A stretch of DNA of 64,000 nucleotides, taken from NCBI RefSeq assembly GCF_000171235.2, contig NZ_ABEA03000120.1, forward strand, positions 1-64,000, read 5' to 3'. Position 1 is the first letter of the stretch. Every line of letters starts with the position of its first letter. Under the pieces are notes generated by a model. The model made no database searches and had not been told where the DNA came from. It saw only the letters and a program-made list of their open reading frames with translations. Position numbers and translations under genes: made by a program. This document shows positions 51,158-63,965 of this stretch, piece after piece. The DNA is from Geminisphaera colitermitum TAV2 (GTDB lineage Bacteria > Verrucomicrobiota > Verrucomicrobiia > Opitutales > Opitutaceae).

Positions 51158-51231
51158 TGGGAGCAGGGGAGGGAGTCGAACCCTCATCTCCACGTTATGA
51201 GCGTGGCAAGTTACCGTTACTCTACCCGGCT
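51158..51231 (-). tRNA. tRNA with CAU anticodon (Met/Ile2 type), CCA encoded
   Basis: Hand-folded cloverleaf AGCCGGG-TA-GAGT-AACGGTA-ACTT-G-CCACG-CTCATAA-CGTGG-AGAT-GAGGG-TTCGACT-CCCTC-CCCTGCT-C-CCA; one C-T mismatch at acceptor 4-69. Confidence 0.88.
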
Positions 51232-51410: not shown

Positions 51411-52313
51411 CTACGAGCCGCAGGGAAGTGCCAGACGGCGTGGCGGCGAGAAAAACGCCTCCGCCTCCGCGCGTGTTGCCACGCCATCGTAATGCTTCGC
51501 GAGCAGCCTCAGCGAGCAATGCCCCATTACCTTTACAGCTGGGCCGGGGTCGCCACGCAGCGCAACGAAGTATGTGGCGAAGGTGTGGCGAAGAATGTCA
51601 TGACCAAGTGTTACGCTTGCCCGCATTGCCGCCTCGCGTCGCTCGTGAATCCAGCGAGGGACATTAAGCGATTCGGGAGCCTTGCCTTTGGACAAACGCG
51701 GAATGATTTCGCCGCTGTCGCGCTGATAGAGCGCCAGTTGCGCCCAAAGGATTGTCGGCACGCCTTCGATGATGCGCTTGTATCCAGTTTTCGCCACATC
51801 AGGAGGAAGCATGATGTAGCGTTCCTTCACATGGATGTAATCCCATCGCATCCGGCAAACTTCGTAGGGCCGGATGCCAGCGAAGAGGGCAAGGGCGAAC
51901 GCCGGGCGGTATGCCTCCGAGGTGGCGAGATAGAAGGCGTGTGCTTCGTGAGGTTTGAAGAAGCAAACTCTATCTCCTTTGTCACGCGGCAGACGAGGCA
52001 ATACGGGCTTCCCCCACTCAGCATCAACATCCAGCTTAATCAGCCTCTCTGACCTTGCCCATCGAAGCAACGTAAGCAACTCCTCTGCGAAGCGGCGGCT
52101 CTTTTTCTCGGCAATTTCGCGAACGTCATCGCGGGTAAAGCTGTCGGCTTCACGATCTGCCTCTGCCATCTCTTTCTGTATCCGCTTCGAGAAAACATCG
52201 TAATTGACGAGCGTCATCCCGCGCAAGTCCAGGTCATTGCGGCTCTTGATAAACAGGGGGAGAATTTCGCCAAGCGTCTTGCGTTTTTTTTGGAAAAACG
52301 GGAACGAAATCAT
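51411..52313 (-). CDS. Tyrosine recombinase / integrase
   Basis: GIRPYEVCRMRWDYIHV (Arg), GHDILRHTFATYF (HxxR), VMGHCSLRLLAKHYDGVAT (GH..Y). Confidence 0.88.
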   Translation of the reverse strand: MISFPFFQKKRKTLGEILPLFIKSRNDLDLRGMTLVNYDVFSKRIQKEMAEADREADSFTRDDVREIAEKKSRRFAEELLTLLRWARSERLIKLDVDAEWGKPVLPRLPRDKGDRVCFFKPHEAHAFYLATSEAYRPAFALALFAGIRPYEVCRMRWDYIHVKERYIMLPPDVAKTGYKRIIEGVPTILWAQLALYQRDSGEIIPRLSKGKAPESLNVPRWIHERREAAMRASVTLGHDILRHTFATYFVALRGDPGPAVKVMGHCSLRLLAKHYDGVATRAEAEAFFSPPRRLALPCGS

Positions 52314-53031: not shown

Positions 53032-53346
53032 ATGAAACTGTCTATTACTCTGTATCAGGAGCCGCCTCGCAGCGGATTCTACAAGGCCAACATCTTTGGC
53101 CGCGTCGCAACCTTTGGCTCTCGCCAGCAAGGAATTGACGCGCTCATGGCCATGAGATTTCCGCTCTCAATCGAAGGGCGAATAGAGGAAGGAAGCTTCG
53201 GCGAAATCGTCGTCGTTGACACGCCACCATCCGGGCACGGCTTGCTGACTGGCGGCGAGCTGGCGACCGCCATGAGATTCGGGCAGGACTGCTTTGGCGG
53301 AGGACATCCGGGGCAGATCGAGCGGATCAACTGTCAGGGCGTCTGA
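53032..53346 (+). CDS. Hypothetical early phage protein
   Basis: Start MKLSITLYQEPP chosen because the CGCAAACGACCA leader lies just upstream. Confidence 0.55.
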   Translation: MKLSITLYQEPPRSGFYKANIFGRVATFGSRQQGIDALMAMRFPLSIEGRIEEGSFGEIVVVDTPPSGHGLLTGGELATAMRFGQDCFGGGHPGQIERINCQGV

Positions 53347-53393
53347 TGGTAGTTCCAGCACTGACGAGACCAATTTCACGCAAACGACCAACG

Positions 53394-54431
53394 ATGCAAT
53401 CCACCAAAAACCACCTCTCCACACCAATGAGCAAGAACCAAATCTTTGCTCTCATTGATGCCTATTTTGACGAGGGAAACGCAAACATCACTTTCACCAC
53501 TGATGCTGACGACGTTCGCCGCCACGTGACGAAGGAAATCGAAGCATTGGGATTCCTCACGAAAGCAATGGAGCACGTCAGCGGGGCCATTGGCCTCATC
53601 CAAAAGTCAGCCGCCAACGCCGAAAGCCTTGCCAAAGCCGCCGCTGACCTAGCCGCTCGCAAGTCAGGCGGAACCTTCACCGTCGAGATCAAGTCCGCCG
53701 ATAAGCCGACCGTGAAGGTCGAGAATCCGCACAAGCAGTTTGCCGACCTCCTCACCATCATCGCCGCTGGCTGCAACGCATACCTCGCCGGGCCTGCTGG
53801 TAGTGGCAAAACAACTGCCGCCGAACAGGTCGCGGGTGCGCTCAAGCTGCCGTTTCACTTCACCGGAGCGGTCGCGACAGAATGGCAGTTGACCGGATTC
53901 GTTGACGCGGGCGGCAAGTATCACTCCACGCCATTCCGCAAATGGACAGAAGAGGGCGGCGTTTTCCTTTGGGATGAAATCGACGCCAGCGATGCGCGCG
54001 CCCTGCTTCGCTTCAACGCTGCGCTTGCGAACGGCATCTGCGAGTTTCCAGACGGCAAAATCGTCCGCCTGCATGAGACGTGCGTTGCGATTGCCGCCGC
54101 CAACACCTACGGGCAGGGTGCGGATCGGCAATATGTTGGCCGCAATCAGTTGGACACCGCCTCGCTGGATCGCTTCGTTTTTCTCGGATGGAAATATGAC
54201 GAGGAATTAGAAACGCGCATCGCCGGAAATCTCGAATGGACGCGCCGCGTGCAAGCCATCCGCCGCGCGGTCGAGTCCATGAAGGTTCGGGCCGTCGTCT
54301 CGCCTCGCGCCAGCATCTACGGTGCGCGCCTCCTCGCGCAAGGCATGGATGCCGCCACCGCCGAAACGCTCACGGTCTGGAAGGGAATGGACGCCGCCAC
54401 GGTCGCGAAAGTTAAAGCTCAAATCCGCTGA
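53394..54431 (+). CDS. MoxR/CobS-like AAA ATPase
   Basis: AYLAGPAGSGKTTAAEQVAGAL (Walker A), GGVFLWDEIDASDARALLRFNAALAN (Walker B). Confidence 0.85.
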   Translation: MQSTKNHLSTPMSKNQIFALIDAYFDEGNANITFTTDADDVRRHVTKEIEALGFLTKAMEHVSGAIGLIQKSAANAESLAKAAADLAARKSGGTFTVEIKSADKPTVKVENPHKQFADLLTIIAAGCNAYLAGPAGSGKTTAAEQVAGALKLPFHFTGAVATEWQLTGFVDAGGKYHSTPFRKWTEEGGVFLWDEIDASDARALLRFNAALANGICEFPDGKIVRLHETCVAIAAANTYGQGADRQYVGRNQLDTASLDRFVFLGWKYDEELETRIAGNLEWTRRVQAIRRAVESMKVRAVVSPRASIYGARLLAQGMDAATAETLTVWKGMDAATVAKVKAQIR

Positions 54432-54434
54432 ATC

Positions 54435-55226
54435 ATGACAACGCACTTTGACAATTTTTCCGACTTCCTCACTTACGCGGAGCAAACCAGCTCTTGGAAC
54501 AATCGCCTCTCGTCTCGCAGCACAAAGGATACCAAGTGGTTTGGCACGTCGTCATTTGGTGCCGCAATGGACCTCGCCCGCAACGGATGGGGGGATGGGC
54601 GTGATTCCGTAGAAAAGACGCGCGCGCACTTCGCCAGCGTGATCGGCTCACGCGCTCGCCGGAAAATACTCACTCATGGCGTCCAAGGCCACATGCCGGA
54701 CGTTGGTGCATACCTCGCCGGGGAAGTTGAGAGCATGTTTTCAACTCAAACCATTGAGGACGATAGCACTGGTCGAATTATCCGTATGGTAGTTAACGGC
54801 ACCGCCTCCGGAGGAATTGACGCCGAGGCAATCATGTCGCGCGGCGCGCTAATTGTCGCATTGATCGACGCACTGGAATCGTCCGCCTTCAGCGTCGAAC
54901 TAACGATGGTTTTTCACGGCAACTGCGGCGGCGCAGATACAATGCAAACCATCCTCGCCAAGCGCGCGGGCGAACCGGTCGAGATTGACCGGCTGGCATT
55001 TTGCGTTGCCCACCCGTCGATGTTTCGCCGCCTGATTTTCTCCTGTTGGGAGCAAGACCACCACTACATGCAGGTAAATGGGTCTAGCTATGGCATGTGC
55101 GCCGAAGCCGAAGATGGGGGAGACATCTACCTGCCAAGCTCCGATCTCCGCGTCATTACCGATGGAGACGCCGTCCAATGGGTGCGTAACCATCTCGCGC
55201 CGCTCGGCATCACTTTCGACGAGTGA
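54435..55226 (+). CDS. DUF7192-like phage protein, partner of AAA ATPase
   Basis: TKWFGTSSFGAAMDLARNGWGDGRDSVEK motif; adjacent to AAA ATPase. Confidence 0.6.
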   Translation: MTTHFDNFSDFLTYAEQTSSWNNRLSSRSTKDTKWFGTSSFGAAMDLARNGWGDGRDSVEKTRAHFASVIGSRARRKILTHGVQGHMPDVGAYLAGEVESMFSTQTIEDDSTGRIIRMVVNGTASGGIDAEAIMSRGALIVALIDALESSAFSVELTMVFHGNCGGADTMQTILAKRAGEPVEIDRLAFCVAHPSMFRRLIFSCWEQDHHYMQVNGSSYGMCAEAEDGGDIYLPSSDLRVITDGDAVQWVRNHLAPLGITFDE

Positions 55227-55273
55227 GCGCAAGCCGCTCGTCACAACAAAAACCGCAAACGACCAAAAACATC

Positions 55274-55933
55274 ATGGGCAAAATTACCATAACATCAAAG
55301 CGAAGGGGAGCCACTGGCACGGCTTCGCCGTCCGCTGACCCCAAAGACCGCGAAGCATACTTGATGCGCGCGGCTGAATTGCTGCGCGAAGACTTCCGCG
55401 CTGCCGGTTCTGACATTCCGCCTGTCCGCCTCTCCGTTGGCTTTCCAAAGCGCGGCGGCAAATCGGCCATTGGCTCATGCTGGAAGCGCGAAGCGAGCAA
55501 GGATGGTGCTTTTCAAATTTTCATTTCTCCGGTCTTGGAGGACTCCATTGAGGCGCTGGCCGCGCTCGCACACGAGCTTTGCCACGCCTGCACGGATTGC
55601 ACCGGCCACGGCTCCGATTTTGGCCGCATCGCGCGCGCCATCGGCCTTGAGGGAAAGCTGACCGCAACCTACGCCGGGCCAAAGCTGACAGCGCGTTTAA
55701 ACGCTCTGATCGAGGGTGAGCTTGGCAAGTATCCGCACGCCGCGCTCACGCCGGAACAGTCGGGCGTGAAGAAACAGGGCACACGCCTCGTCAAGTGTGT
55801 GTGCGAAGAAAGCGGATACACCGTCCGCACAACGCGCCAGTGGCTCGTTCAATACGGACCGCCAATCTCGCCAGCGTCGAAAAAGCCGATGAAGGTCGAA
55901 GGCGTTGACGCGCTGGAAGGGGGTGCGGAATGA
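55274..55933 (+). CDS. SprT-like zinc metalloprotease
   Basis: ALAHELCHACTDCTGHGSDFGRI (HExxH...H) and C-terminal CVCEESGYTVRTTRQWL. Confidence 0.75.
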   Translation: MGKITITSKRRGATGTASPSADPKDREAYLMRAAELLREDFRAAGSDIPPVRLSVGFPKRGGKSAIGSCWKREASKDGAFQIFISPVLEDSIEALAALAHELCHACTDCTGHGSDFGRIARAIGLEGKLTATYAGPKLTARLNALIEGELGKYPHAALTPEQSGVKKQGTRLVKCVCEESGYTVRTTRQWLVQYGPPISPASKKPMKVEGVDALEGGAE

Positions 55934-56716: not shown

Positions 56717-57008
56717 GCGGCCTGATTTCAACCTCGTGAGTGTAACATGCGCGCGAACGTCACACACAGGAGAGGCGGTTGCTGCCGCGGAACCACAACA
56801 ACAATGGGCCGGGCAAAAAGATTCCTTGCCGGGGGTGGTATGAACCCCGCTGATGGCTGTATCAGTTCGCCCGATACGTAATCATTAGCCCTTCGACTAA
56901 CTGCCGCGCGCTGCGACTGTAGGCTTGACGGATTTCCGGCGTATCCCCCATTAGAATACTTGCCGCGTGCGCCGCGACGTTTGGCATTCGATCCTAAATC
57001 CATCCTCT

Positions 57009-57719
57009 TCAGTTACGCGATGGATCAGACGGTGGCGTGATCCCCTCCACGTTCGCCTTCGCGCGATGGACCTTCCGCATCAGGCTTCGCGTCTTCTCGC
57101 TGCGTCCGCCTCGTGCCGCGATGCCAAAGCGGTCGCGAAACTGGCAGGCGTAGCGGGAAAGGATCGTGTCCGTGCAGCCAAGGCGCTTCGACAGTTGGTG
57201 CATGGAGATGCCGTCGAGCGCGTCAGGCTTGAGAACCCATAGCGCCGCGATGGTGCGCAGGCCAACGGTGCGCGCGTCGGGCGGCTTCGGATGCGGGGTG
57301 CCCGCTGACAGGTCTGGCATCGTAAGCATGTGGCAGAACTCGCCGAGGCCATGCGCGAGGCTGGCGAAGTTCTCGCCGCCGTCCGGTTGTTGCGCAGCGC
57401 CCTCCGCTTCCTCCACGGCATCGTAATCGAAATCGACGTAATCGTGAGCGTGGCGGATCGGATGCAGTTCACGAGGGGCAGGGCAGTGGAGGGGCGCGTG
57501 TTGCTTTTTGTCGCTTCGCGTCGCTTTCTGTCGCTTCGTTATTTTTTTTCCGGTAGCCCGAAAATCGGGATGCGCAGTGAGCCAGGCACGCGCATCGGCC
57601 AGCGTGAACCGGCCTGCGAAGGCTGGCGCGAAACCGGCCTGCTGCATCCGATGGACGTAATGACGCGACCTGCCGAGCGCGGCGGCGAGTTCCTTGCGAG
57701 AGAGAAGACGATCGCTCAC
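57009..57719 (-). CDS. HTH phage regulatory protein
   Basis: LLSRKELAAALGRSRHYVHRMQQAGF N-terminal HTH; second HTH-like LSKRLGCTDTILSRYACQF. Confidence 0.6.
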   Translation of the reverse strand: MSDRLLSRKELAAALGRSRHYVHRMQQAGFAPAFAGRFTLADARAWLTAHPDFRATGKKITKRQKATRSDKKQHAPLHCPAPRELHPIRHAHDYVDFDYDAVEEAEGAAQQPDGGENFASLAHGLGEFCHMLTMPDLSAGTPHPKPPDARTVGLRTIAALWVLKPDALDGISMHQLSKRLGCTDTILSRYACQFRDRFGIAARGGRSEKTRSLMRKVHRAKANVEGITPPSDPSRN

Positions 57720-57928
57720 TGCGATCCTCTCCTTCCATTCTCGACACGCACGCAGCCGCGAATGCCTGCCGCTTTAAGCCATGCCTTGGCCCAATTGGTC
57801 TTTGTGTGGCAATCGGTGCAGACCATGCCGCCGATCTCGGAGTCGGGCCATGTTCCGGCGTCGGACATGCAGCAGGCGCAAAGGTAAACGAGCTTCCCGG
57901 ATGCTGTTTGGACAGGTGGCGTGGTCAT
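57716..57928 (-). CDS. Small zinc-finger-like protein
   Basis: LCACC...CTDCH Cys pairs. Confidence 0.5.
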   Translation of the reverse strand: MTTPPVQTASGKLVYLCACCMSDAGTWPDSEIGGMVCTDCHTKTNWAKAWLKAAGIRGCVRVENGRRGSQ

Positions 57929-58845
57929 ATCCGAAACTCCTTTCGTCCGTCTGTGCCGGTGGTGACGGTGCCCTGATCGGCTCGGCGCGCGTGGATCGAA
58001 TCGCAGAGAGGATCGCGCAGGCGGCGAACGATGGCTGCGCCCGTAGCCTCCTGCTTGAACCGGGAGACGAGGTCAGCGCCGACATACTGCGTCGTTACGA
58101 CGACGTGCCGGTGCCAGTTGGCGCGAGTGCGCAGCAGCTTCAGCAGGCGCTGTTCCTTCTTAAAATCGGGCACATCGTTGCCCAAGTCATCAATGATGAG
58201 GACCGGCACGCTGAACGCCTCCTGCGGCATGGAATCGAGCAGGTCGATGGCTTCGATCAGCATGACGCCGACGCCCTCTTCGCAGAGACGGCGGTAAAGC
58301 TGCCAGCAAACGCGCGTCTTGGCGCTGTCAGTGTCGCCGTGAATGACCAGACCGCGCTTTGGCGCACGGCCTTCGCTGGGGCACCATTGCGCGCCCCAAT
58401 CCATAACGCGTTTAAACAGTGTGGCGCTGCCTTTGGCGTTGTCCCAATCTGGCCGGAACTCGGTCGGGCAAATGCGCTCCCAAAGCTCGCGGTTGCGGCG
58501 TGCCGCCTCCTGGTCGATCTTCGCGGCCTCGTAGCAGGCCTCGCAGCAGTTCACGGCAAACCAGCCGGGGGCAAGCCGTGCGTCGATCTGACGCCAGAGT
58601 TGGCTAAGGGGCTTGCCGCACACCTTGCACTTGCCGTCGTAGGGGTGCGGGTGCCCGGTGAAGTCGTCGAGGCCGCGCAAGAGCAGCGCGCCTTGCATTT
58701 CGGAAGCAAGCGGGATTTCGGCGAACGCTGTCGGCCCGCTGTGGCGCGCCGCATCGGATGGCGGCGGCGGTGCGTAGTCGTCGGGCCAGCCCCCGCCGAA
58801 CGGGTTGCCCTCGATGTCTGTCGTATCGGTTTCGGTTGTCTGCAT
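57925..58845 (-). CDS. DnaC/P-like AAA+ helicase loader with zinc motif
   Basis: RGLVIHGDTDSAKTRVCWQLYRRL, VPVLIIDDLGND; CKVCGKPL...CCEAC. Confidence 0.75.
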   Translation of the reverse strand: MQTTETDTTDIEGNPFGGGWPDDYAPPPPSDAARHSGPTAFAEIPLASEMQGALLLRGLDDFTGHPHPYDGKCKVCGKPLSQLWRQIDARLAPGWFAVNCCEACYEAAKIDQEAARRNRELWERICPTEFRPDWDNAKGSATLFKRVMDWGAQWCPSEGRAPKRGLVIHGDTDSAKTRVCWQLYRRLCEEGVGVMLIEAIDLLDSMPQEAFSVPVLIIDDLGNDVPDFKKEQRLLKLLRTRANWHRHVVVTTQYVGADLVSRFKQEATGAAIVRRLRDPLCDSIHARRADQGTVTTGTDGRKEFRI

Positions 58846-58878
58846 GTTTGGTCGTTTGCGGTTTTGTTGGTGAGCCGA

Positions 58879-59739
58879 TCAGAAGCCTTTGCTGTGATCG
58901 GAAAGCGGCATTTGGAACGGATTCCCTCCGGGCCGATGGGTTGGCGGTGGCGGCGGGTTGGCACACTTCGCCCACCACTTGGCGAGGGCGGAGGCTGAGA
59001 GCGTCACGTCGGGCATGTGGAGGCGGTAGTTCGCGGCGCGGCGGGCGATTTCGTCGGGTGTCAGGCCGGGGACGACGCGGCGGATGTCGGCAAGGGCGAC
59101 GCCCACGGCACGGGCGGCGGGCTTCGTGAGTTGCGCCGGGTCGGAGCCATCGACGGCGGCAAGGGCGTCGAAAAGCGGGTCGCGCTGGCGAGGCTTTGGC
59201 GCGGCTGGCGGCGGTTCGGATTGAGGCAAGGGCAGTTCGTTGCCGGGCGTCTCGGCAATCGGCGCGGCGGCGGATGCCGACGCTCTATCTCCATTCCCTT
59301 CCTTTCCCTGTTCCTTTCCCTTCCTTTCCAGCGACGAACGTTCGTCGAGTGCTCGTCGAACATTCGACGAATCCTCTTTTTCAGGAGGCGAATCAGAGGG
59401 AGCGGCACCGTCAAAGAATGGTTTTATTTTCGATTTTGACGGGCGATCTACGCGCTGATGTTCAGCGAAACTCACGATGCGGCCAGTCGGTCCATGAGAC
59501 GAGTGCTCGCGCAGTTCGACGAACCCAATTTTCGAGAGGTCGTCGAGTGCTCGTCGAACATTCGACGAATCCTCGTCGAGTGGTCGCAGAGCGGCGCGAA
59601 TCAGGCGGGCATCGGCGTAAAAATAGCCCTCGTCGTCTGCGTAGTTAAGCAGGCCGATAGCGAGAAGTTTTGATGCGTCAGACTGGCGCACCATGACAGG
59701 GTGTGACCAGAACTCAGGTTTGATGGTGCGGATTCTCAA
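58879..59739 (-). CDS. O-like replication initiator (winged-helix replisome organiser)
   Basis: MRIRTIKPEFWSHPVMVRQSDASKLLAIGLLNYADDEGYFYADARLIRAAL; upstream of DnaC-like gene. Confidence 0.75.
   Translation of the reverse strand: MRIRTIKPEFWSHPVMVRQSDASKLLAIGLLNYADDEGYFYADARLIRAALRPLDEDSSNVRRALDDLSKIGFVELREHSSHGPTGRIVSFAEHQRVDRPSKSKIKPFFDGAAPSDSPPEKEDSSNVRRALDERSSLERKGKEQGKEGNGDRASASAAAPIAETPGNELPLPQSEPPPAAPKPRQRDPLFDALAAVDGSDPAQLTKPAARAVGVALADIRRVVPGLTPDEIARRAANYRLHMPDVTLSASALAKWWAKCANPPPPPTHRPGGNPFQMPLSDHSKGF
59332..59574. repeat. Two 35-bp direct repeats with nested palindromes (candidate origin iterons)
   Basis: tcgtcgagtgctcgtcgaacattcgacgaatcctc at 59342-59376 and 59540-59574; palindrome CGACGAACGTTCGTCG at 59332-59347. 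Confidence 0.8.
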
Positions 59740-59781
59740 TGAGTGTTTTCCTTTCTGATATACGAACGCCGGTTGGCAGAA

Positions 59782-60048
59782 TCAGGTGTTACGCTCTTCG
59801 ACTTCGGCCTTGATGATGAAACAGTCATCTTTGATGAAACCGCGCACCAGTGTGCCTTTAAGTGCTGTCCGTACAACGGGAGTGAGTGGCACCAGCGCCT
59901 CAACGATCTGGTGGAATTGCTCGAAGCTCGCATCGAACTTTTCGCAAATTGCGGTTTCAATTTCTGACGAATCGGCGTCTTCGCTCAAATTCAGCAGGGC
60001 GCGTGCTAGTTCTTCCACATCCATCCAGTCTATTTTTGTATTTTTCAT
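59782..60048 (-). CDS. Hypothetical phage protein
   Basis: 88 aa acidic ORF in the early operon. Confidence 0.45.
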   Translation of the reverse strand: MKNTKIDWMDVEELARALLNLSEDADSSEIETAICEKFDASFEQFHQIVEALVPLTPVVRTALKGTLVRGFIKDDCFIIKAEVEERNT

Positions 60049-60090
60049 TTTTGTATTGGGAAAAAATTGCGTAACCAGACGGTGGCGCGG

Positions 60091-60534
60091 TCACTCCGTG
60101 CCGCGCACCTCGGTGTTACGCTCTTCGAGTCCTTGGCGCTGGCGGTGCAGGGCAAAGACGGCATCGGCGTGCGGATCGTCGCTGGCAGGCGCGTTGCACC
60201 GATGCGAGTCCTGCACGGCGTAGATCATCTTCCATGCTGGATTTTTCGGATTCACTTTCCCGAGCATTGCGGAGTGGCAGGCGGTGATCGTCGCATCGAG
60301 CAGGTCCATGCGTGAGGCGGCATCTCGGAGACCGAGAATTTCGCATTTGATCTCACGCTCGCTCTCGTCATCGAACGCGCCGACGGCATTGAGCATTTCG
60401 TCTTTTTCGTCCGCCTGAGCCCGGAGCCAAGCGGCCGAACCAAGTGCTAGTTTGTGTGTGTTTTCCATATGTGTGTCCTCATAGATTGTTGTCGTCGTAG
60501 TCCCATTGGTCTGCGCTGTCGTCGATTTCGTCAC
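60091..60534 (-). CDS. Hypothetical phage protein
   Basis: Likely start at MENTHKLALG; early operon. Confidence 0.45.
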   Translation of the reverse strand: MTKSTTAQTNGTTTTTIYEDTHMENTHKLALGSAAWLRAQADEKDEMLNAVGAFDDESEREIKCEILGLRDAASRMDLLDATITACHSAMLGKVNPKNPAWKMIYAVQDSHRCNAPASDDPHADAVFALHRQRQGLEERNTEVRGTE

Positions 60535-60878
60535 AAAGTCCGCCTGCGAGCACGCCAGCGCACGGCACGTCTCCTAACCGGCATCGGCAGTGTTTTGCCA
60601 TGCTTTCGACCCAAGCCTGATACTCGGGATCATCCGTCATATCGAGAGGCGTCACGTTTTCGCATTTCGGTTTCATGGCATTCAAAAAAGCGTAACAATT
60701 CACCCCTCCAAACCCTACGGGTTGGAGGCTTTTGGGTTAGAACTCAAAGCTACGCCGCCGGATTGTGTGAGCAGATACTCATGGGCAGCGTATCTGGTGT
60801 CGATTCCCCGGAGGAAATCCACGAGTTTTTGGGCGAGGGGTGGGATTGTATCGTTCATAAATTTTGTATCCAAAAAGT

Positions 60879-61229
60879 CTAACCATGCGACTCGTGCGAG
60901 GCTTCGCCCGCACGGTCTGAGGTGTTCAGCGGAGCGCTCACGCGCCGAGCCTCGAAGGTGCGACGCCGCTCCGCCCGCTTTTCGTTTTTCCATTCGAGCA
61001 TCGTCTTGCCGAAGTGGGCCTCGGCGCATGAGGCGCAAAACCAGACGCCGCAGTATAGGCAGCGATAAGCCAGTTCCAACGCACGGGGCCGGCCACAGGG
61101 GCAATGCACGGTGTGCGCCGAAACAGCCTCCGCCCATTGCGTTTCGAGGGTTTGTTTTTTGGCCGGATCATCGGCCATCGTTATGTATTCGATCTGGGCA
61201 GGCATTTTGAAAATCGCTGAACCATTCAC
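60879..61229 (-). CDS. Zinc-finger-like phage protein
   Basis: CPCGRPRALELAYRCLYCGVWFCASCAEAHF. Confidence 0.55.
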   Translation of the reverse strand: MNGSAIFKMPAQIEYITMADDPAKKQTLETQWAEAVSAHTVHCPCGRPRALELAYRCLYCGVWFCASCAEAHFGKTMLEWKNEKRAERRRTFEARRVSAPLNTSDRAGEASHESHG

Positions 61230-61693
61230 TCGACGCGACCTGTCGGCGCGTCATTCGGGGTGTCCGAATCGGAATCTTTCTCGCGCTCCATCTGGTCTAT
61301 AACCATTGCCATGCTAATGCTCATGTGACCAAGACACAGCACTACGAGGACGCCGAAGAAGTTGGCTTTTGCGACGATGCCCCCACCAGCCAACACGAAA
61401 AAAGCGTAACCCATAAAGCGGAAGACCGCTTCGCCGAGATAGAGGAACAGGCCCGGCCAACCATTCGCGGGAGGCAACGCCTCTGGCTTTTGTTGTGTTT
61501 CGTTATCCATTGGTGCGTGCCTCCGCTGGTGTGTTAGACTGGAGCCGAGGGGCGCGATACTGGCAGCCAGTGCCGGGGGAAATGGTCCATCCCTCGTAGT
61601 CTCCATTGAGCCACGGGGTCCACCTACCGCTTCCCTCGCGGTAGCGGTATTGGTAGCCGGGCCGGCGCTTCTGGCCGGGCCGAAGCCGAACAT
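61226..61693 (-). CDS. Membrane protein
   Basis: Internal start MDNETQQKPEALPP likely; two hydrophobic segments. Confidence 0.45.
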   Translation of the reverse strand: MFGFGPARSAGPATNTATAREAVGGPRGSMETTRDGPFPPALAASIAPLGSSLTHQRRHAPMDNETQQKPEALPPANGWPGLFLYLGEAVFRFMGYAFFVLAGGGIVAKANFFGVLVVLCLGHMSISMAMVIDQMEREKDSDSDTPNDAPTGRVE

Positions 61694-61916
61694 ACTTGGG
61701 CTTCGCTATTGCCTCACGCTCCCACCTGTCGCACTTGCGCAGCATCGCACGGAGCGTCTTGGTTTCGGCGGCAACGGAGTCGTCGTCATTCATGATAGTC
61801 CAGCGTCGCGGGCCACATGCGACAATGTTGTATCCGCGATAATTGTAGAACCCGCGCTTGATCCTAAAGGGCTTGTGTTTCGTTTTCATAAGCCTCCTTT
61901 CTTGGCGGCATCCCAT
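61503..61916 (-). CDS. Hypothetical phage protein
   Basis: Arg/Tyr-rich, early operon. Confidence 0.4.
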   Translation of the reverse strand: MGCRQERRLMKTKHKPFRIKRGFYNYRGYNIVACGPRRWTIMNDDDSVAAETKTLRAMLRKCDRWEREAIAKPKYVRLRPGQKRRPGYQYRYREGSGRWTPWLNGDYEGWTISPGTGCQYRAPRLQSNTPAEARTNG

Positions 61917-62590
61917 GCTGCCAACGACTCGTTACCGATTGTCACGATCGCCCCTTCATGACGCATGACATTACAAACAAACTTGAGGTCGGATGCCAGC
62001 GCATCACCAGCGGCGGCCAAGGCGGCGACATGGGCGCGGAGGGAAGCCCATTCCTCGTAGATTCGCTTAAGCGCGTCTATAGCACCTTCGCCGCCAAACG
62101 CTCCGTGGCGGTCGATTATGTTCACCATGGCGCCCCATTCATCGCGCAGATTTACATAGTCCGCGCCCATTTCGGCTGGCGTCTTGGCAAACACATCGGC
62201 AGCCCTCATCAAGTCGCCCAAAATGAACTCTGCTTCTTCGGGGCTGAATCCATATTCAGCGATGACAATAGAGGCTTTCGGTGACGCTTCGCCACTCCAT
62301 GTATTAGCCTCTCTGGCAAACGGCTCCAATGCCTCCCGCAACTCCGCAACCAGTGCCTCGGCGGCTTCGGCACGGCGCTTCCAGTCGAGCCAACACACGT
62401 CCTTGGTTGCTTGGCAATTCAGCGCCTCGGCAAGTTTGGTGGCACTGTCCGGACCCTCGCTCCATACACAACCAACAAGCAATGCACTGTCAGGGGCGTC
62501 GGGGCTTCCATACCACACGTCGCGGGGCAGGTTTGGAAAAACAAAGTAATATGGCGCGTTTAAACGCTCTGTATTCGTTTTGTCATTCAT
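61886..62590 (-). CDS. Hypothetical phage protein
   Basis: 234 aa; LEALVAELREALEPFAREA coiled coil. Confidence 0.55.
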   Translation of the reverse strand: MNDKTNTERLNAPYYFVFPNLPRDVWYGSPDAPDSALLVGCVWSEGPDSATKLAEALNCQATKDVCWLDWKRRAEAAEALVAELREALEPFAREANTWSGEASPKASIVIAEYGFSPEEAEFILGDLMRAADVFAKTPAEMGADYVNLRDEWGAMVNIIDRHGAFGGEGAIDALKRIYEEWASLRAHVAALAAAGDALASDLKFVCNVMRHEGAIVTIGNESLAAWDAAKKGGL

Positions 62591-62927: not shown

Positions 62928-63443
62928 CTACAGGGCGATTTCGCGCCCCGTCAGATATTGTGTGACGGCCTGCTGCGCCTGATCGAAGGTGCGGACGACA
63001 ACGGCCTCGTAGCCTTGGCCGCGCAGTGCGGACATGACCTGCTGTTGCTCTTCCCGCACGCGCCCGATAGTCGTCTTGAACTCAAGAAACAGGCCGTGTG
63101 CCTTGCCGCCGCGCGTGATGTTCGGGACGGCAAGGCAGATGTCGGGGATTCCGGCGCGAACGCCTTCCCCCTTCAGAATGGAGCCGGTGACGGCGTTGCG
63201 AGCGCCACCATTCGGCACCGCGAAAAGGAGCCGGGCGTCAGGCACGCCAAGCCCCCTGTGAGCGAGGTTCCACCAAGCGACGAACGCGGCCTGAAGGCGG
63301 CTCTCGATGTGACGTGGCATGGCGTCAGTTCCTTCCTTGCTGCGTGAGGGTCTTGTGAAGGCGTTTGTAGAAACGCTGCTTCTCTTGCTCTGCCTTACGC
63401 TGCCGGACGGTTGCGAGGTGGTCGCCGATGAGCACGCCGCCAA
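62928..63443 (-). CDS. VRR-NUC type nuclease
   Basis: ESRLQAAFVAWWNLAHRG...AVPNGGARN...GVRAGIPDICLAVPN...LFLEFKTTIGRVREEQQQVMSALRGQGYEAVVVRTFDQA; start uncertain. Confidence 0.8.
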   Translation of the reverse strand: MAACSSATTSQPSGSVRQSKRSSVSTNAFTRPSRSKEGTDAMPRHIESRLQAAFVAWWNLAHRGLGVPDARLLFAVPNGGARNAVTGSILKGEGVRAGIPDICLAVPNITRGGKAHGLFLEFKTTIGRVREEQQQVMSALRGQGYEAVVVRTFDQAQQAVTQYLTGREIAL

Positions 63444-63546
63444 TCGTGGAGAGCGTGGCGATGCCCATTGACGCGAGAAGCGATGCGAGTTGGCCGCTCA
63501 TGACCACACCTCCGCAACCTGTTCCTTCGCCCGCGAATAATACCAC
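63325..63546 (-). CDS. Small phage membrane protein
   Basis: SMGIATLSTIGGVLIGDHLATVRQ. Confidence 0.4.
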   Translation of the reverse strand: MVLFAGEGTGCGGVVMSGQLASLLASMGIATLSTIGGVLIGDHLATVRQRKAEQEKQRFYKRLHKTLTQQGRN

Positions 63547-63965
63547 GGCGAAAGGTCGATTTCCTCAAGCTCCAGCGAAGCGTTCGGCCACCAGTTGCGC
63601 GCGTAGCACTTGTCGAGGTCGAGGAGGAGGCGCGAGACCTCATCCTGACCTTGCGCAAGCGCACGATACGACAGACGGCAGACCTTCACGCCGCCCGGCG
63701 CGCATTTCTCGGCAGGCACGAAAAAGAAGTCGCGCACCTCAATGCCGAGCAACGAAAGCACAGCCATGTAGAACGCGGCCTGCCGATGGTAGCCATGCTC
63801 CTCGAAGCCGCGCTGCCAGTTGCCAAAAGCGCTCTCCTCAAGCGTGGCACACGTCTTGATGTCGAGGATGTAGGGACGGCCTTGCGACAACTCGCAGCCC
63901 TCTTCGTTGATCCAGTCTGTGCGGACCTGAAGAGGCGGGCAATGCGGCAAACCTGTCGCCTGCAC
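63498..63965 (-). CDS. PD-(D/E)XK (RecB-like) nuclease; upstream part lies beyond or just before the window end
   Basis: DWINEEGCELSQGRPYILDIKTC...RQAAFYMAVLSLLG. Confidence 0.7.
   Translation of the reverse strand: MQATGLPHCPPLQVRTDWINEEGCELSQGRPYILDIKTCATLEESAFGNWQRGFEEHGYHRQAAFYMAVLSLLGIEVRDFFFVPAEKCAPGGVKVCRLSYRALAQGQDEVSRLLLDLDKCYARNWWPNASLELEEIDLSPWYYSRAKEQVAEVWS

Follow-up and report, generated by a model that had tools for sequence, protein, structure and literature searches.

In phage lambda, the replication origin is known from experiments to lie inside the O gene (PMC7466680). Experimental work has also established, for the rep gene of pSK41, that the origin encodes the linker, which can be dispensed with in trans (PMC5703833). 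In SPP1, oriL is likewise known from experiments to lie inside gene 38 (PMC6316719).

In the open-access literature, intragenic iteron origins are already known in other systems, and the initiator family described here is uncharacterised. This literature holds nothing specific on repeat strings or intragenic phage origins of the family, and we found no binding, melting or replication assay for it there. Further precedents may exist in the work on the lactococcal TP901-1/Tuc2009 rep genes and in the review of phage replication modules by Weigel and Seitz.

The window, that is, the whole stretch of 64,000 nucleotides analysed, contains the initiator gene and the other features listed in Table 1. 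Judging from its sequence, this gene very probably contains the replication origin of the phage, in the form of an intragenic iteron origin. An earlier note on this DNA had placed a candidate origin inside the initiator gene, and the proposal is supported by the repeat arrays, by their nature at the DNA level and the way they change together, by the tract and by the genomic context. We consider an intragenic origin the best reading because iterons in helical register lie in the initiator's own gene, together with an adjoining loader gene and a strand-specific tract.

Table 1. Features of the initiator region, in window positions.
Feature	Position	Strand	Details
DnaC-like helicase-loader gene	57925-58845	minus	next in operon after initiator; phrog_50, E 2.8e-6
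Initiator gene	58879-59739	minus	286 aa; TTG start, start uncertain
Purine tract (GGAAAGGAAGGGAAAGGAACAGGGAAAGGAAGGGAATGG...)	59283-59329	minus	encodes ERKGKEQGKEGNG; densest such tract of the 64-kb window
Array B (linker)	59331-59373	minus	units 59364-59370, 59353-59359, 59342-59348; degenerate fourth 59331-59337 (TCGTCGC)
AT-rich stretch	about 59413-59440	minus	codons of the conserved SKSKIKPFF segment between arrays
Third wHTH helix, predicted recognition helix (H59-70)	59530-59565	minus	AlphaFold2, pLDDT >90; overlaps array A
Array A	59540-59583	minus	four 11-bp units (TCGWCGA+4): 59573-59579, 59562-59568, 59551-59557, 59540-59546

By profile search, the initiator protein is a member of the "replication initiation protein" families PHROG 16167, 1408 and 2149 (E 3.3e-26, 8.1e-24 and 2.1e-22, respectively), with the match spanning the N-domain and the linker. 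The AlphaFold2 model has three parts: a wHTH domain (residues ~3-98), a disordered linker (~112-180) and a helical C-terminal domain (~188-260). The wHTH domain is modelled with confidence, with helices at 21-33, 44-51 and 59-70 and a hairpin at 74-88, and its third helix is the predicted recognition helix. As for the gene context, a loader or P-like gene follows the initiator gene in the window and in annotated relatives, and the DnaC-like gene that had been noted after the initiator is confirmed by its profile match.

Among 58 family members, neither Pfam Phage_rep_O nor Pfam RepA_N was matched at E<=0.1. The C-termini differ among relatives: by Pfam, 5 of the 58 carry DnaT and 2 carry Phg_2220_C. 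No sequence relatives were found in the PDB, no Rfam match within window positions 57000-62000 and nothing closely related in DNA in the phage collection; 272 other genomes from this order likewise yielded no relatives. The likeness to lambda drawn in the earlier note stands in part: the wHTH domain, the iteron-coded linker, the C-terminal domain and the neighbouring loader gene are there, but a match to the lambda O family is not. In terms of fold, the RepA_N N-domains 4pt7, 4pql and 5kbj are among the top matches (TM 0.56-0.58, E about 0.01), a moderate similarity that is no better than that of other wHTH proteins (Fur, CodY, MarR). Among the fold matches listed, we recognise no bacterial or plasmid replication initiators other than these three. 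The locus would resemble lambda or RepA_N origins in its working, and we claim membership of neither family.

The exact 35-bp repeat reported earlier was found at 59342-59376 and 59540-59574, the copies being 198 bp apart and in frame. The reported palindrome CGACGAACGTTCGTCG is also present, at 59332-59347, overlapping the first copy, and is simply two adjacent 11-bp units. Each 35-bp copy has an internal 11-bp period, which the earlier note had missed: the arrays consist of near-palindromic TCGWCGA units, one per 11 bp. A fifth unit of array A, out of register, lies at 59516-59522. The residues encoded are 53-67 for array A and, within the disordered linker, 123-137 for array B.

The unit pair TCGWCGAN4TCGWCGA occurs at 5 sites in the window, all in the initiator gene, and at none in 100 shuffles. 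Considering the whole genome (5.67 Mb), five of the six sites are in this gene; the sole other site is on contig C62 (C62:29099-29116). With synonymous codons of the window gene shuffled, none of 5000 versions reaches 5 unit pairs (mean 0.05). The longest string common to both array regions is 35 nt, compared with at most 26 nt in codon-shuffled versions. A chance origin of the repeats is excluded.

Relatives were drawn from IMG/VR, annotated phages and GTDB genomes and clustered to 123 genes. As a control, synonymous codons were shuffled within each gene, which keeps the protein and the codon counts. At lag 11, the recognition-helix segment gives 16.2 of 26, against 11.8 in this control (123 clusters). 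In the same segment, lag 11 reaches p<=0.05 in 64% of the 123 genes and lag 22 in 41%, with all other lags of 4-33 reaching only 0-9%. In the linker, lag 11 is found in 73% of these genes, beside lags due to the tract. The recognition-helix and linker result is reproduced (36% and 61%) in 61 additional GTDB clusters, which come from Planctomycetota, Gemmatimonadota, Actinomycetota, Pseudomonadota, Verrucomicrobiota and others; a C-terminal control segment gives 7%. The helically spaced repeats appear to be kept among unrelated phages of many phyla although the unit sequence changes.

The repeat spacing of 198 bp (18 x 11) is present in the window gene but is no family-wide rule. A fixed array spacing was rejected as a general feature, as the offsets, taken modulo 11, scatter and form a hump at 3-6.

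With unit classes named after inspection of the data, and arrays A and B classed separately, the class is the same in both arrays in 70 of 71 classable genes, where 18.6 are expected. The classes include the TCGWCGA, TCASTGA, TCGCGA, TCCGGA, TACSGTA and TTCCARGA types. On a poorly resolved tree, from which the array-coded residues had been left out, the class changes at least 13 times, and the agreement holds across these changes. Near the window gene, TACSGTA replaces TCGWCGA in both arrays of L021 and L026. The arrays of one gene have 5.6 9-mers in common, compared with 0.48 after codon shuffling and 0.70 across genes, and a palindromic core is present in 77% of arrays and in 35% of shuffled units. 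Because array A lies within the codons of the recognition helix, a change in unit sequence is tied to a change in the residues that would read the DNA. The earlier note had raised the case of relatives that keep the peptide and lose the repeats; we found the opposite, namely that the 11-bp DNA architecture is kept and that the peptide varies, as does the unit sequence.

Units use all frames, with the exception of TCASTGA, which avoids the frame that makes TGA a stop. In the would-be-stop frame, the 11-bp neighbour is TCACGGA, TCACGAC, TCACACA, TCACGAA or similar, with one half-site retained. Here DNA and protein are in conflict.

Genes without any named unit class number 53 of 184. Some of them are HNH-fused proteins, which may not be initiators. 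Three genes from Streptomyces and relatives (L296, L304 and L307) have the same N-domain, an HNH-nuclease-like C-terminus and no 11-bp arrays; they are possibly natural negatives having another function.

A pyrimidine tract had also been reported, and it is present, with 44 pyrimidines in 47 positions. The gene is on the minus strand, which the earlier note did not state, so the tract is a purine one (GGGAAAGG) on the coding strand, where it sits downstream of the repeats. In relatives, GGGAACA or GGGAA/GGAAA repeats are found on the coding strand directly downstream of array B. GGGAACA is read in frames 0, 1 and 2 in 40, 39 and 44 genes, respectively, and its reverse complement is practically absent. 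Occurring in all three frames and on one strand only, it is therefore a strand-specific DNA feature and not a peptide. In four complete phages, the tract is the densest of its kind genome-wide.

The arrays could instead be initiator binding sites for autoregulation, as a roadblock or operator within the gene, or for partition, and not an origin. Repeated sites of wHTH proteins can be operators or parS-like, and the parS loci of cluster A mycobacteriophages, which are arrays of 8-bp direct repeats (PMC7157519), count in favour of partition. We consider this explanation unlikely: the position, order and neighbours of the arrays fit intragenic origins, the promoter is where an operator should lie, and the strand-specific tract adjoining the array suits an origin better. 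For partition in particular, no ParA-type gene was found among the scanned proteins near the initiator gene.

Another explanation concerns the tract, which would be only a recombination joint for swaps of initiator domains, kept by shared homology and not by origin function. Between the window gene and L004, DNA identity rises exactly at the tract from about 50%, where the two are poorly alignable, to 80-90%. In the two initiator genes (L004:3001-3915 and window 58879-59739), the C-terminal halves are 80-90% identical in DNA, and the N-domains and arrays differ. This suggests modular swapping there, with the tract also a place of domain exchange. As the whole explanation, a recombination joint is improbable, because it leaves the 11-bp arrays unexplained and the tract is conserved strand-specifically in unrelated phages of many phyla. 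The joint and origin roles of the tract can coexist.

As for the protein level, the repeats might reflect the duplication of an 11-residue peptide (DSSNVRRALD) with a role in the linker. The two window copies are in frame and peptide-identical, and the linker peptide copies part of the recognition helix, which it would mimic. Yet the units of array A occupy frames 1, 0, 2 and 1 in succession, coding L-D-E, S-S-N, R-R and L-D-D. A step of 11, not being divisible by 3, takes the units through all reading frames, and the peptide therefore cannot account for them. In addition, the signal persists under a null that keeps the protein and codon counts, the GGGAACA tract yields different peptides by frame, and the linker is predicted to be disordered. 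A working peptide is thus very unlikely, and we read the linker's copy of part of the recognition helix as a by-product of the DNA repeat. Lastly, the coding of an amphipathic alpha-helix (3.6 residues x 3 = 10.8 nt) has almost no likelihood as the source of the periodicity: array A does encode a helix, but the signal stands out against shuffles that leave the protein unchanged, the C-terminal control segment has lag 11 in no more than 7% of genes, and the array B region is predicted to be disordered.

The AT-rich stretch reported earlier is present, but it consists of the codons of the conserved SKxKIK segment between the arrays, and the family has none that is pronounced. A strong AT-rich unwinding element was not found in the family, where linker AT is only 4-7% above the gene mean. 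In some SKIK-type relatives, the SKIKxL codons spell WATCAANNNNTTR, the IHF consensus. Of 82 SKIK-type genes, 21 have this consensus between the arrays, compared with 2.0 by codon shuffling, and it is on the coding strand in 0 of 102 non-SKIK-type genes; a strict match is absent from the window gene. Of 27 SKIKxL motifs, 24 use TTA or TTG for Leu, whereas the gene-wide share of these codons is 23%. An IHF site between the arrays is a possible feature of SKIK-type genes.

GC skew, a check proposed earlier, gave a mixed picture in the four complete phages. Two of them have the cumulative minimum 0.2-0.7 kb upstream of the initiator, but the other two disagree, the nearby extremum being a maximum in one and absent in one. 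GC skew is also confounded by transcription, and for both reasons it was dropped as proof of an origin.

An intragenic origin could work as follows. The N-terminal winged-helix domain would bind the near-palindromic units of arrays A and B, which, being one helical turn (11 bp) apart, would present the same DNA face. The two arrays would join in one nucleoprotein complex, possibly assisted by an IHF-type bend between them in many proteobacterial phages. This complex would open the DNA at or beside the strand-specific tract (GGGAACA/GGGAA) that follows array B, and the C-terminal domain, together with the adjoining DnaC- or P-like protein, would load the host helicase. Binding, melting at the tract and helicase loading by the DnaC-like protein are steps that we infer.

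We see an even chance that array A is itself a working site, with the DNA that codes the recognition helix being recognised by that same helix. If so, a new specificity could evolve only through joint change of protein and DNA at the same base pairs. This would explain the large variety of unit classes and the near-perfect agreement of arrays A and B. The phages would then form a system of compatibility types that is self-contained.

Other features of the window include a tRNA-Met gene (51158-51231) beside a tyrosine integrase gene (51411-52313), both within an IMG/VR provirus call at about 28254-68350; no direct repeat of at least 20 nt was found around them. On the opposite strand, 53346-54431 encodes an AAA ATPase of PHROG 249 ("porphyrin biosynthesis", CbbQ/MoxR-like), and a SprT-like protein (55223-55933) is encoded close to it. 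Upstream of the initiator gene and in the same direction, 62928-63965 holds a VRR-NUC nuclease and a RecE/DUF3799-like exonuclease fragment.

With this analysis, a putative origin can be read from the sequence in a large uncharacterised class of phage initiators, which occurs in Verrucomicrobiota, Pseudomonadota, Actinomycetota, Planctomycetota and others and includes well-studied mycobacteriophage groups (Redi) and Klebsiella prophages. The puzzling low-complexity peptides of these proteins (EGKGKEGK, GTGNREQGTGNREQ) and their repeated motifs DSTNVRRSIDD, EPSVSIHDSL and RETFARVSRG would be accounted for as DNA sites that are translated in three frames. The class is also a natural system for the study of joint change in initiator and origin specificity.

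In comparison with known systems, PHROG 16167, 1408 and 2149 are protein families only, and we found no origin description for these. SPP1 gp38/oriL and the putative origin in gene 43 of Francisella phage KIRK also have repeats within the initiator gene (PMC6316719, PMC7924643), and KIRK gene 43 carries the Phg_2220_C domain present in some relatives of the window gene (PMC7924643). Both origins are AT-rich, and the accessible parts of these sources report no paired 11-bp arrays. The RepA_N initiators (pSK41, pTZ2162) and PLE RepA share the wHTH N-domain and semi-palindromic iterons, and the host-specific C-domain of RepA_N initiators is a further likeness (PMC5703833, PMC7145576). The central linker coded by the origin is common to pSK41 and the window gene (PMC5703833), but RepA_N iterons are centred on a poly-A tract, unlike the window arrays.

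Finally, unlike lambda O, the window gene has no Phage_rep_O match, its 11-bp units are contiguous, a second array lies in the wHTH codons, and the tract is G-rich purine where that of lambda is AT-rich. What the window gene would have in common with lambda O/ori-lambda and Stx-phage O is an origin inside the initiator gene. It also resembles them in layout, with iterons in the central coding part (bound in lambda by the N-terminal domain), and in order, with a tract downstream that would correspond to the lambda unwinding tract and a loader gene next (PMC7466680, PMC5043065).
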